Assembly: GCF_021869765.1 (NCBI RefSeq)
Contig: NZ_CP084580.1
Coordinates: 186,001-250,000, forward strand
Direction of reading: 5' to 3'
Length of the DNA stretch: 64,000 nucleotides
DNA from: Chryseobacterium sp. MEBOG06
GTDB taxonomy: Bacteria; Bacteroidota; Bacteroidia; Flavobacteriales; Weeksellaceae
The notes under the pieces were generated by a model that worked only from the letters and a program-made list of their open reading frames with translations, did not search any database and was not told where the DNA came from. Below, piece by piece: positions 20,085-24,265 of the stretch. A program made the translations under genes and the position numbers. How positions within the stretch are numbered: position 1 is the first letter of the stretch; each line of letters begins with the position of its first letter.

Positions 20085-20156
20085 GAGTTTAATTACGCAT
20101 GAGTACTATTGCGTATGGGAAGGTTGATGCTTTTCCTGTTTGGATCGATAATTTTG
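20085..20156 (+). promoter_or_regulatory. operator-like element copy A plus promoter
   Basis: The core at 20085-20115 begins GAGTTTAATTACGC and contains direct half-sites GAGTAC and GCGTAT with starts 10 bp apart, plus the inverted pair TACGC-N12-GCGTA. A -33 TTG (20124) and -7 box TAATTTTG (20149-20156) follow with 22-nt spacing. The core end is 33 nt from the -7 box, the same geometry as copies at 21449 and 22327. This suggests binding of an activator just upstream of polymerase. Confidence 0.7.
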
Positions 20157-20444
20157 CGGCTTAAAAACACAAGCTAATGCTTTTAATTGATGTGAGGTAA
20201 AAGCTTATTAATTTTTATCAAAAATTGTATTTCATTTGATAATTTTAATATTGATTTTTAGTAAATTGTAACTAGAAAAACACCTTAATCATATTCTTTA
20301 TAATGATAATGCTAAAAAAAGACTGACATATTTCATTATTGTAGGTTTTTATTTGCATAAAAGGCTGTTAATATTGGGAACTTTATGCTTTCAGGAGTAC
20401 AAATGCCAACTTAAGTTTGTGAAAGAGTAAAAAACAATAACAAG
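20157..20444 (+). other. long untranslated leader of the membrane regulator gene
   Basis: From the predicted start point near 20160 to the ATG at 20445 there are about 285 nt with no convincing gene. The stretch is very AT-rich. A second weak promoter-like pair (TTTG near 20353, TAATATTG near 20371) could give a shorter leader. I see no riboswitch I recognise. Confidence 0.4.
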
Positions 20445-21434
20445 ATGATTTATAAGTTTTTCTTTAAGGTGATCAATGACGAAGCTGAGACAATAGATGA
20501 TTTTGAAAGTAATTATCTGCATCTTATTAACCGCTATCTGCTTTTACTTTTTTTCATATTTCTGTTTTACTCCATCTTTATTATTACTTTTTTTGGAGAT
20601 ATGTTTGTTTCCATATTTCTTACTGTGATTACTTTTTTCTGGTTGTTTCTAATGGCCATAAAAGGAAAGACGAAACGGTTCAGAAAAGTATTGAAAACTG
20701 CCATTATCAGTATCTTTGTTTTACTTACCTTTATTGTGAGTTTTTTTAATATTTATACATACAAAAATGCCGGGGTAGAATATTTTTATTTTTGTCTTTT
20801 ATTTGCTGTTCCATTCTTTTTGAACTATAAAAAAGATGCATTTTCTATCTTCTTCATTACTTTCATGATCAGCATTAATTTTATTGTTTGCCTATACTTT
20901 GATTTTGACTTTCTGCCTAAAAGCAGATTTATAGAAAAACAGGACTTTAAAACAATAAAGCTGTTGAATATCTTGTTTTCCATTGCATCTTTCCTGATGG
21001 ATATCGTTTTTATTGCTCAGAAAGATGTGCTTATAAAAGGGTTGATTACGGATCGGAAAGAGAAGGATTCCACCATTAAAGATCTGATAAAGACGAATGC
21101 TGAACTGATGAAACATCAGATGCTGATCAATCATCTCTCAGAGGAAAACATTCAGGAAATTTTGAACCTTGCAGAAGCTAATTCTTCCATGTTTTTTGAA
21201 AAATTTCAGGTGTTTTTTCCTCACTTTATCCCGGATATTTTAAAAATAAACCCAAATCTTATTCATTCAGAACTGTATTTCTGTGCGTTGATGAAACTTG
21301 ATTTTGATACGAAGAAAATAGCACAATGTACCAATAACAGTATCCGTGCTGTAGAAAGTAAAAAATACAGAATACGAAAAAAACTGAATATTTCTTCTGA
21401 AGTAAACATCAATAGTTTTCTCATTAAAATTTAG
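20445..21434 (+). CDS. membrane-bound LuxR-like transcriptional regulator
   Basis: This 329-residue protein has an unusual layout. Residues 1-190 contain about six or seven hydrophobic segments, among them YLLLLFFIFLFYSIFIITFF and FLTVITFFWLFLMAI. A likely coiled linker (about 200-235) follows, and then a C-terminal LuxR/GerE-like helix-turn-helix (about 275-329: HSELYFCALMKLDFDTKKIA, then NNSIRAVESKKYRIRKKLNI). DNA binding is therefore tethered to the inner membrane, with signal input from the membrane domain itself. No phospho-acceptor domain is present. It is preceded by operator copy A and a long leader, and is followed 15 nt later by operator copy C. It probably controls nearby genes, but its signal is unknown. 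Confidence 0.78.
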   Translation: MIYKFFFKVINDEAETIDDFESNYLHLINRYLLLLFFIFLFYSIFIITFFGDMFVSIFLTVITFFWLFLMAIKGKTKRFRKVLKTAIISIFVLLTFIVSFFNIYTYKNAGVEYFYFCLLFAVPFFLNYKKDAFSIFFITFMISINFIVCLYFDFDFLPKSRFIEKQDFKTIKLLNILFSIASFLMDIVFIAQKDVLIKGLITDRKEKDSTIKDLIKTNAELMKHQMLINHLSEENIQEILNLAEANSSMFFEKFQVFFPHFIPDILKINPNLIHSELYFCALMKLDFDTKKIAQCTNNSIRAVESKKYRIRKKLNISSEVNINSFLIKI

Positions 21435-21448
21435 ATTTTGGCTACTTT

Positions 21449-21520
21449 GAGTTTTAATACTTATAAGTAGTGTTGAGTAGTGCTTTATGGTATTTGTTGG
21501 CCTGTTGGTCAATAATTTTA
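21449..21520 (+). promoter_or_regulatory. operator-like element copy C plus promoter
   Basis: The core at 21449-21480 begins GAGTTTTAATAC and carries half-sites AAGTAG and GAGTAG with starts 10 bp apart, plus a perfect 12-bp palindrome TACTTATAAGTA. A -7-like TAATTTTA lies at 21513-21520, 33 nt from the core as in copies A and B. No clear -33 TTG is found at the matching position, so this promoter would depend on an activator. Confidence 0.6.
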
Positions 21521-21535
21521 CCTGAAAATAATGCA

Positions 21536-21949
21536 ATGAATATTAAAAACATCCATATTGGCAGTCTGATCAGATCCAAAGTGGAAGAGTATCAGATCCC
21601 GATAGAAAGAATCAGCAGATTTTTAGATAGAGCAGAAGAGGATGTGGAAAAAATGTACAATGAGAAAAGCATTGACACTGAAATTCTGTTGAAATGGTGT
21701 AAACTTTTAAAATTTGATTTCTTCAGATTTTATAGCGGACATCTTATTTTGTATGCTCCTCCGTCAAGAGTTGATAACACAGTCAGCGAAAAGAAAAACA
21801 CAATGGTCTTCAGGAAAAATGTCTATACGCAAGAGGTAAAAGATTTTATACTTGAGAAAATAGCAAATGGTGAGATGACGGCCAATGAAGTTGTTCTACG
21901 GTACAAAATTCCCAAAACGACCTTATACAAATGGATGAAAAAAATATAA
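21536..21949 (+). CDS. small HTH protein (137 aa), family often labelled transposase
   Basis: The protein starts MNIKNIHIGSLIRSKVEEYQ and ends in a helix-turn-helix with YKIPKTTLYKWMKKI. Between them is LLKWCKLLKFDFFRFYSGHL and then a linker with ILYAPPSR. I know similar short proteins from Chryseobacterium and relatives, sometimes annotated as transposase because the HTH resembles that of IS3-type OrfA proteins. No DDE catalytic domain or inverted repeats are present here, so I treat it as a DNA-binding regulator. The ATG at 21536 is chosen over an earlier frame start because the family begins there. It is followed 1 nt later by another HTH gene, implying coupled translation. Confidence 0.7.
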   Translation: MNIKNIHIGSLIRSKVEEYQIPIERISRFLDRAEEDVEKMYNEKSIDTEILLKWCKLLKFDFFRFYSGHLILYAPPSRVDNTVSEKKNTMVFRKNVYTQEVKDFILEKIANGEMTANEVVLRYKIPKTTLYKWMKKI

Positions 21950-21950
21950 T

Positions 21951-22271
21951 ATGATTCCGGATTACAAACAGATTTATACGGATATTCTTAAGGAAAAGTT
22001 TCCTGAGAAATTAATGGATATTACCATTAAGCATCGGCTGGAAAGATTGCATTCGGCTATTGATGTTGTGAATTTTAATCAAATGGTTTTTGGGCAGCCG
22101 GAATATGAAGTCGGATTTAATAATCAAAGGCTTCGCTCTTATGATGAAGAATCAATCTTAAAAATTCTCAGCTATCAGAAAAAGAATAAACTTACCAACC
22201 TACAGTTGAGCAGCCATTTTAAAATAAGTAGAAATACAGTTACCAAATGGAAAGCTATTTTTAAAATTTGA
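21951..22271 (+). CDS. second small HTH protein (106 aa)
   Basis: This 106-residue protein starts with MIPDYKQIYTDILKEKFPEK and ends with a helix-turn-helix, FKISRNTVTKWKAIFKI, similar in position and pattern to the end of the preceding gene. The middle region (HSAIDVVNFNQMVFGQPEYE) is not recognised. It is co-transcribed with the preceding gene (1-nt gap). The two may work as a pair, or one may antagonise the other. The partner and target are unknown, but operator copy B begins only 55 nt beyond its stop. Confidence 0.7.
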   Translation: MIPDYKQIYTDILKEKFPEKLMDITIKHRLERLHSAIDVVNFNQMVFGQPEYEVGFNNQRLRSYDEESILKILSYQKKNKLTNLQLSSHFKISRNTVTKWKAIFKI

Positions 22272-22326
22272 AGATCAGCCCATCTTTGTATTTGTCCTTT
22301 TTAAATAAGTAATTATTAACATTTGT

Positions 22327-22397
22327 GAGTTTTATTACGCGTGAGTAGCATTGCGTAGGTGGAATTGATTTGTAATTATCTGTGAATGATAACTTTG
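22327..22397 (+). promoter_or_regulatory. operator-like element copy B plus promoter
   Basis: The core at 22327-22358 begins GAGTTTTATTACGC and has half-sites GAGTAG and GCGTAG with starts 10 bp apart and the inverted pair TACGC-N12-GCGTA. A -33 TTG (22365) and a -7 box TAACTTTG (22390-22397) follow with 22-nt spacing. This drives the exported repeat protein, whose ATG is 56 nt downstream of the -7 box. Confidence 0.7.
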
Positions 22398-22453: not shown

Positions 22454-24265
22454 ATGATGGAAACAAAATTTACAATCCTCCCGATCAGGGCTTTGCTGAT
22501 AGCACTGCTCTTTACTTTTGGAAAATCTTATTCGCAGGCCAATAACGGAGCTGTAGGTATTAATACCACTTTCCCCAATTCGAATTCCGTTTTGGATGTA
22601 GTTTCAGGAAATAGCAACAAAGGAGTACTGATTCCCAGGCTTACCGAAGCGCAGCGAAATGCGATCACAATCAATCAGTCCAAAGATGATGGTTTGACGA
22701 TTTACAATACTACTGAAGACTGCTTCAATTACTGGAGCTTAGCAGATAATGAATGGAAAAGTGTCTGCGGGCAGATGGGTAAGGCTGTTTTTACGGTAGA
22801 CTGTTCTTCTTCCAAAGCAATGGGGAGCTATGTGAAAGGTAAAGAACTTACCAATTCCAATTACCTTAGTATTGCTGTCAATATAACAAAAGTTGGTAAT
22901 TATACTATTTCCGGAACGACTACAAACGGATATAACTTTTACGGAACAGGAGTATTTCTCAATACAGGAGTACAAACCATACAAATACCAGGACAGGGGA
23001 TTCCTCTGAATATTCAGACAGATAATATTGCACTTGAAGCTAATGGAACAGTGGTTACCTGTAGTCCTGCAATTTCTATTTCTGTGCTGAGCCCGGCAGC
23101 AACTTACACAATGAGCTGCGGAAGTGCAACAGTAAATGGTGTGTATAAGGTGGGAACTACTCTTGCAGTTTCTAATACCATTACGTTACCTGTAAATGTT
23201 TCAGCATTGGGTAGCTATACCATTACAACCAACACGGTTGACGGAATTTCCTTTAATGCTTCAGGTACATTTACTGCTACGGGAAATCAGAATATCACTT
23301 TGCAGGGGATGGGTACACCTACTTCAACCACTTTAAAAACAATGACCATTACTTCGGACAGTAAGGGAGGAGTTTCCACCACATGTACGGTAAATGTGAT
23401 TGTAGTTGTTCCAAAGAAAAAGCTTTTAGCCATTGGAACAGCACCAAACGGATGTGGATATAATGTATCGGGGACTTCTCCATCAGGTATGCTGACTAAA
23501 GCCGCCGCTAATTTTGGAACATTGGCAAACAGCATCGTAAAATATGAAGGATGGGATCAGATTATAGACGGTACAGACAGCCCGAATGCTACACAGCTGA
23601 CAAGTTGGACAACGGGAGCCAATCCTGTAGATATTATTGTAATAGGATATGCGTGGGGAATGAATGCTGCGGAAGCACAGGTGCTAAAAAATTATCTGAT
23701 AAAAGGGGGTGTCATCATTGCTTATTCTGAAAGTAACAGCGGAATGCAGAATCTTTTCAGAAATGTTTTTGACGGATCTGTAAACACCGGAAGTGTAAAC
23801 AGTGCGGGAGCTGTCTATAAACTACCGCTGACAAATGATGAAATCCTGAATGGTCCTTTTGGAGATATAAGAGGATTGCAATGGGGAGAAGATGCTTCTT
23901 CTACAACGTATGCAACTGGCCTGCCTTCAAGCGAAATTACGGTATATTCAGGAGATACCAATATCTCTACTGCTTCACCATCAGGAACGGTAGGCCGTGT
24001 AACTGCATTTAAGCATAACACTCTAAACTTCATCTGGGCAGGAGATGGCGGATACAACTCTCAGTGTGGAACAGTTGCTTCTCCAAATACCTCAGATACT
24101 ATATGCCCTTTCTATGCAGATACGAACTATAAGCCAATTGCTAAACCCAATTATGGAAATGGTGCCACTGCTTATAAAATGAATGTATATAACTCAATAT
24201 TCTACGCAAATGCTCTTGCCTGGGCAATTAAAAAGGCAGAATTCAACGGAATAAACACACAATGA
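22454..24265 (+). CDS. large exported repeat protein with C-terminal ThuA/GATase1-like domain
   Basis: This 603-residue protein has a signal peptide (residues 1-28, ending KSYSQ). Next comes a motif common in flavobacterial surface proteins, GAVGINTTFPNSNSVLDVVS with GVLIPRLTEAQRNAI. Two diverged repeats of about 100 residues follow (about 112-215 and 216-315), each opening with a Cys-containing strand (FTVDCSSSKAMGSYVKG, YTMSCGSATVNGVYKVG). The C-terminal half resembles a ThuA or type-1 glutamine-amidotransferase fold: VDIIVIGYAWGMNAAEAQVL, then GGVIIAYSESN. I see no T9SS sorting domain and no LPxTG. The protein is probably surface-exposed or periplasmic. Start is ATG 22454 (a second Met follows directly). 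Function is unknown. Confidence 0.75.
   Translation: MMETKFTILPIRALLIALLFTFGKSYSQANNGAVGINTTFPNSNSVLDVVSGNSNKGVLIPRLTEAQRNAITINQSKDDGLTIYNTTEDCFNYWSLADNEWKSVCGQMGKAVFTVDCSSSKAMGSYVKGKELTNSNYLSIAVNITKVGNYTISGTTTNGYNFYGTGVFLNTGVQTIQIPGQGIPLNIQTDNIALEANGTVVTCSPAISISVLSPAATYTMSCGSATVNGVYKVGTTLAVSNTITLPVNVSALGSYTITTNTVDGISFNASGTFTATGNQNITLQGMGTPTSTTLKTMTITSDSKGGVSTTCTVNVIVVVPKKKLLAIGTAPNGCGYNVSGTSPSGMLTKAAANFGTLANSIVKYEGWDQIIDGTDSPNATQLTSWTTGANPVDIIVIGYAWGMNAAEAQVLKNYLIKGGVIIAYSESNSGMQNLFRNVFDGSVNTGSVNSAGAVYKLPLTNDEILNGPFGDIRGLQWGEDASSTTYATGLPSSEITVYSGDTNISTASPSGTVGRVTAFKHNTLNFIWAGDGGYNSQCGTVASPNTSDTICPFYADTNYKPIAKPNYGNGATAYKMNVYNSIFYANALAWAIKKAEFNGINTQ

Follow-up and report, generated by a model that had tools for sequence, protein, structure and literature searches.

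Three operators at a fixed distance from the -7 boxes of one Chryseobacterium locus, probably read by its predicted membrane regulator

The 64-kb window analysed here, positions 186001-250000 of a single-contig 5.29-Mb Chryseobacterium genome, carries three copies of a 31-bp operator-like element. They stand upstream of the genes for a predicted membrane regulator (MR), a pair of helix-turn-helix (HTH) proteins (H1 and H2) and a predicted exported protein (EXP), each ahead of a predicted -7 promoter box. Judged by sequence comparison, the three sites are probably (about 75%) the operators of one locus-private regulon, with MR the likely protein to bind them and activate the three promoters. 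Our best reading is a conserved operator-promoter code, private to this locus and used by a one-component membrane activator that would control an autoregulated mini-regulon. An earlier note on this DNA had left the binder open among the three HTH proteins; our comparisons point to MR. The gene order is cdsA, psd, site 1, MR, site 2, H1, H2, site 3 and EXP, followed by two genes on the opposite strand, cdsA and psd being what we take the first two genes to be from their sequences.

Each operator consists of a left half-site of the form TACKC, a 2-nt gap and a right half-site GMGTA that recurs exactly 10 bp further on, with a conserved GAGTTTT-like stretch preceding. The three half-sites (left inverted, right, and right 10 bp on) read TACGC, GAGTA and GCGTA in operators 1 and 3, and TACTT, AAGTA and GAGTA in operator 2; in genome G112 a TACGC at the left end (in G106, TACGT) adds a fourth half-site and makes the symmetry nearly full. 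The cores, half-sites and 10-bp repeat described in the earlier note are all in place (Table 1), as is the TACGC-N12-GCGTA symmetry claimed for two of the three cores. Its uniform distance of 33 nt between core and -7 box holds for operators 1 and 2 but not for operator 3, where the box lies 32 nt from the 31-bp core. A genome scan of the kind that it had proposed found no random scatter of the core: at up to three mismatches the 31-bp pattern has three matches in this genome, all at this locus and with -7 boxes at 32-33 nt, and the reversed-pattern control has none. A wider regulon sought in the same genome at this threshold yielded no site beyond these three, and a looser 22-mer added one match (G000:C1:1330735, three mismatches), with no -7 box in the following 53 nt. 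When the window was scanned blind to the letters, for a 5-bp half-site inverted across 2 bp, a direct repeat 10 bp on and, 31-34 nt further down, a -7 box (no more than four mismatches in total), just these three places were returned, a result that shows rarity rather than independence, as the geometry was derived from these very sites.

Within the genus, the element is kept wherever an MR orthologue occurs. Among 148 same-genus genomes, 54 match the pattern, with 112 matches in all; this locus accounts for 109, the other three lie elsewhere (in G006, G020 and G031), and the reversed control has 8 (hand-summed). MR orthologues are present in 60 of the 148 genomes, and all 60 loci carry at least one site with a TAnnTTT[GA] box 31-34 nt on, 52 by the pattern and 8 by weaker copies, under a rule that allows up to nine mismatches to a degenerate key. 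The same rule gives 147 sites in 61 loci, compared with none on the opposite strand and 8 when the key is reversed. The 88 genomes without an MR orthologue have pattern matches in two cases (G031 and G124), that in G031 lying apart from any MR, H1, H2 or EXP gene. In the named collection, the element occurs at 38/38 Chryseobacterium MR-orthologue loci (L157-L194), many of which belong to the same genomes and are not independent.

The number of sites is mostly one per transcription unit: three in 31 of the 38 MR-H1-H2-EXP loci (two in six, one in one), two in 9/11 MR-EXP loci and two in 6/6 H1-H2-MR-EXP loci. A site precedes EXP in 56/56 loci having EXP, MR in 43 of the 49 loci where MR comes first, and H1 in 9/11 loci with H1-H2 ahead of MR. 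These counts support the mini-regulon with autoregulation that had been proposed earlier; that the control is activation we infer. It is highly improbable that the cores are non-regulatory, as a repeat family, a recombination site or an RNA hairpin. The core does hold an inverted repeat and H1 does resemble transposase-type HTH domains, but the sites stand before genes in a single orientation (147 against 0 on the other strand), at a fixed distance to the -7 box and hence upstream of the expected start, and dispersed copies are lacking both in the genome under study and in the 148 same-genus genomes.

Of 98 non-redundant sites, 97 are followed by a TAnnTTT[GA] box at 32-34 nt, whereas with shuffled downstream sequence the number of such sites per class averaged 0.37 to 0.47 and never exceeded 4. 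To arrive at the 98, we started with the 133 sites assigned to MR, H1 or EXP and dropped those with more than six mismatches, those whose context was short or nearly identical (99 of 110 bases), and the decayed sites in G020 and G136; five sites assigned to the next gene (G005, G050, G052, G124 and G126) are not included. Information per column is 1.5-1.7 bits in the core, 1.2-1.4 in the -7 region and about 0.5 in the spacer, and such a fixed distance over a variable spacer is typical of a protein that has to hold a set position relative to RNA polymerase.

Bacteroidota promoters differ from the textbook type. They feature a -33 TTG, placed 17-23 nt ahead of the -7 box, and transcription starts a few nucleotides past the box. 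The promoters here carry a -7 box like that of the sigma-ABfr-type promoter of Bacteroidota. In the available text of PMC6414381, the Bacteroidota -7 box is given as TAnnTTTG; the boxes here agree, fitting TAnnTTTG or TAnnTTTA. The -33 TTG is absent from most MR and H1 promoters, which have the operator at a set place instead. A TTG at 17-23 nt was found in 3/31 MR promoters and 1/29 H1 promoters, and in 17/37 EXP promoters, which may not be wholly activator-dependent. The case for MR as an activator, which we infer from the fixed upstream position together with the missing -33 TTG, is weaker for EXP than for MR and H1. That MR instead binds as a repressor, or switches roles, is quite unlikely. 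Autorepression is common among regulators, and the EXP promoters with a TTG might fire unaided, but the operators stop 32-34 nt short of the -7 box and would leave it uncovered, and so fixed a distance is what is expected for polymerase contact.

Within the locus, the constant partner of the operator appears to be MR and not the HTH pair, because sites persist without the pair, the sites of lost pairs decay, and other H1 copies lack the geometry. H1 and H2 both have HTH domains (profile search, below cut-off), those of H1 being weakly similar to IS66/IS3 transposase-type HTH domains. That this pair binds the operator and regulates the locus, with MR merely a target, would agree with its place inside the regulon, and H1 paralogues, found in 142 of the 148 genomes, could act where the local pair is gone. 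Yet 11/60 loci without the pair still carry sites. In G020 and G136, where the pair was lost, its old site has 7-8 mismatches, and the remaining two fit the degenerate key perfectly; the five other H1 copies of the genome under study are without such geometry in the flanks fetched; and loci of MR relatives in Elizabethkingia and of paralogues of about 40% identity (described below) have the geometry with no H1 or H2 match in the stretch fetched. We therefore regard the pair as a very unlikely binder. Sites also weaken where EXP is lost, the last site in G050 and G126 having 7 and 5 mismatches, respectively.

The MR model comprises six predicted membrane helices, a long helix (about residues 167-228) and, from about residue 245 to 329, a C-terminal DNA-binding domain with the four-helix HTH fold of NarL/LuxR C-terminal domains. 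The fold match of this domain is the VraR C-terminal domain (probability 1.00, target TM 0.74, though E 0.64). We call MR NarL/LuxR-type by fold and do not place it in PF00196 (GerE), because its score is under the Pfam cut-off (12.6 against 23.5 bits); Sigma70_r4_2 scored 13.4 against a cut-off of 25.7. A sequence search of the Protein Data Bank with the MR profile gave just three weak matches (E 0.57-0.75), among which was the response regulator EsrB. MR, H1, H2 and EXP had no Pfam or NCBIfam match over the curated cut-offs and none in PADLOC at E 0.01.

The geometry recurs beyond the orthologues. In a family-wide search of 296 genomes from 33 genera, MR relatives at E 1e-30 or better were found in 66 genomes of three genera, one of which is Elizabethkingia, with four loci (L147-L150). 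These hold two tandem MR relatives (identity 33-35% and 44-46%) together with a cargo that is exported and resembles a lipoprotein. Their MR promoter has CACTC, GAGTG and GAGTG in the same geometry, with TACGTTTG or TAGGTTTG 33 nt on, at 4/4 loci, and their cargo promoter has CACTCGTGAGTG, whose third half-site is degenerate, at 32 nt from TAACTTTG (hand count). A short reading frame starting MRKNDKQLMNQ lies between operator and cargo gene there. Chryseobacterium MR paralogues of 40-41% identity (L134-L136) have the geometry at 3/3 loci, so that the letter-blind scan found it at 7/7 loci of relatives of 40-46% identity, compared with 0-1 matches in shuffled sets.

Over all 30 loci scanned (L127-L156), there were 15 matches, again with 0-1 per set of shuffled loci: seven at orthologous loci (L127 two, L128, L130, L154 and L156 two), seven at the independent L134-L136 and L147-L150, and one at L153, on the minus strand, that looks like chance. 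Matches peak at the 10-bp period and offsets of 32-35 nt; other half-site periods gave 0-3 and offsets of 40-43 nt gave 2, and at period 10 there were 9 matches with a gap of 0 and 11 with a gap of 4, probably because the same sites were read with a shift of one base. In the recognition helix, 61 readable orthologues carry the motif RA, whereas 11/11 proteins of the groups with GAGTG-like half-sites carry KS, so that the motif varies in step with GMGTA as against GAGTG-like half-sites, a link confounded with phylogeny, as common descent alone could give the same pattern.

Several observations weigh against MR as activator of a private regulon. By the rule used, a site is missing before MR in 6/49 MR-first loci (G047, G062, G068, G147, G012 and G083) and before H1 in 2/11 H1-first loci (G005 and G109), and many of the weaker copies carry 5-9 mismatches. 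The 17 EXP promoters with a TTG, the GerE score below cut-off and the confounding of the half-site link with phylogeny belong here too. Among relatives, the 48% MR paralogue in G016 (L133) has no such site, nor do the paralogues of roughly 30% identity, some of which lie beside EXP homologues, and the idea that the geometry is general to proteins sharing the MR C-terminal domain was rejected, with 0 matches in 20 loci. In G092 (L101), two sites are kept beside a disrupted MR, with stops inside the match, which may be a recent loss. Finally, sites and MR share a locus, and their co-occurrence is by itself compatible with a regulator encoded elsewhere that has the locus among its targets. This last alternative, which the sites kept in G092 would also suit, we consider unlikely. 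The genome under study offers no other target at up to three mismatches, and the place added by the looser 22-mer lacks a -7 box at the right distance; matches off the locus in the 148 genomes (3/112) are fewer than those of the reversed control; and MR relatives at other loci, and in a second genus, again come with the geometry. A factor encoded elsewhere would have to serve this locus almost alone.

In the mechanism that we propose, the predicted NarL/LuxR-type domain at the C-terminus of MR would bind the operators, and MR would thereby activate its own promoter and those of the HTH pair and EXP, three in all. With transcription starting a few nucleotides past the -7 box, the operator centre would lie near -60, a place from which such activators can touch RNA polymerase, and at most MR and H1 promoters the polymerase would need the bound regulator, because the -33 TTG is missing there. 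The six-helix membrane domain would be the sensor, the long helix would convey its state to the DNA-binding domain, and a signal in or across the membrane would start a self-amplifying rise of MR and cargo.

Table 1. Operators, predicted promoter elements and genes of the locus (window coordinates)
Feature	Position	Strand	Basis
Operator 1, upstream of the MR gene	20085..20115	+	Sequence; pattern scan of own genome; kept in 43/49 MR-first loci
-7 box TAATTTTG, MR promoter, 33 nt past operator 1	20149..20156	+	Predicted promoter element
MR, 329 aa, predicted membrane regulator, likely operator binder	20445..21434	+	Model and comparison
Operator 2, upstream of the HTH pair H1-H2	21449..21479	+	Sequence; pattern scan of own genome
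-7 box TAATTTTA, HTH-pair promoter, 33 nt past operator 2	21513..21520	+	Predicted
H1, 137-aa HTH protein, regulon member	21536..21949	+	Sequence, profile similarity
H2, 106-aa HTH protein, likely co-transcribed with H1	21951..22271	+	Sequence
Operator 3, upstream of the EXP gene	22327..22357	+	Sequence; pattern scan of own genome; kept in 56/56 loci with EXP
-7 box TAACTTTG, EXP promoter, 32 nt past operator 3	22390..22397	+	Predicted
EXP, 602-aa predicted exported protein (cargo)	22457..24265	+	Sequence, model

To our knowledge, few Bacteroidota activator-operator pairs are defined at base level. The literature search on membrane LuxR-type regulators and on regulation in Chryseobacterium and Elizabethkingia found no described operator or regulator of this kind among the matches listed, with subscription journals mostly outside its scope, and within these limits it agrees with the statement in the earlier note that no described operator of this sequence was known. 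Two systems come close. In the text available for PMC9734109, DadR, CadR and HcdR of Eggerthella lenta are LuxR-type activators with 10-12 transmembrane helices that activate neighbouring genes, with autoregulation suggested for DadR. Like MR, they join a membrane domain to a C-terminal LuxR-type DNA-binding domain, whereas MR has six predicted membrane helices instead of the 10-12 of the Coriobacteriia regulators, belongs to another phylum and has an exported protein as its cargo where E. lenta has a catechol-metabolism enzyme (PMC9734109). The operator and its distance are defined here, and no operator definition was met for the E. lenta regulators in that text (PMC9734109).

ComA of Bacillus subtilis is described, in the part of PMC4797271 available, as a soluble dimer that binds TTGCGG elements with spacers of 4 nt (inverted) and 5 nt (direct). 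ComA promoters share with the operators here a NarL/LuxR-type activator and an inverted plus a direct repeat of one element with strict spacers, but here the half-sites are of the GMGTA type with a 2-nt inverted gap and a 10-bp direct period, and the likely binder is a membrane protein, unlike soluble ComA (PMC4797271). By analogy, the MR system would work like the E. lenta membrane LuxR-type activators with a layout like that of ComA, and by the features tested it is a member of neither.

The MR membrane domain was also compared with those of class III adenylyl cyclases such as Rv1625c/Cya (PMC4821796 and PMC12505454). The sequence identity is 6-10% and the model matches 7yzk at Foldseek E 1.8, but in helical models the arrangement of the helices can by itself produce Z scores of this order. 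The output domain of MR is DNA-binding, not a cyclase. A bolder reading, possible but doubtful, is that Chryseobacterium and Elizabethkingia have one-component factors in which a six-helix receptor of the adenylyl-cyclase kind is fused to a DNA-binding domain. Such factors would sense a lipid or envelope signal and drive a private, self-amplifying regulon via a rigid code of 10-bp-phased half-sites 32-33 nt from the -7 box, whose letters would be re-coded along with the recognition helix.

The operator, its fixed distance to the -7 box, the likely binder, the target genes and a natural half-site change between genera are all laid out in directly testable form. If the proposed control by MR is true, it would provide a rule by which the genes controlled by membrane LuxR-type regulators could be found in these bacteria. 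It would also offer a compact genetic switch, and a case in which to test whether six-helix membrane domains act as receptors with a direct link to transcription.

Several loci show variants of the arrangement. G124 (L112, around 2869) has a near-empty site: the stretch from psd to the next gene has lost MR, H1, H2 and EXP and keeps a lone relic operator, with no -7 box at the right distance. In G063 (L092), a genome 75% complete, the MR reading frame is split and the operators remain. In G005 and G052 (L073 and L090), an unrelated-looking exported protein replaces EXP behind an intact operator and keeps a similar N-terminal motif, VGIGITEPKSTLHIEG...VPRLT. Distant MR paralogues of about 30% identity at L140, L142 and L143 (and L155 and L139) adjoin EXP or H1 (and H2) homologues in other genomic places, and regulator-cargo modules seem to recur without this operator.

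The H1 family is multicopy, with six matches in the genome under study, one of which has an internal stop; the other copies lie at G000:C1:820953, 3833211, 2292253, 2602026 and 2597156. The EXP model has a hydrophobic helix at the N-terminus, domains of beta-sandwich fold and a C-terminal part of alpha/beta type. We assign EXP no function, because the structure search with this model gave, among the 50 matches listed, only broad beta-sandwich chains at a low query TM (0.11-0.18). Among loci whose MR is 86-92% identical, the identity of EXP to the copy described here is bimodal (about 87-91% or about 60-75%), which looks as though the cargo gets exchanged.

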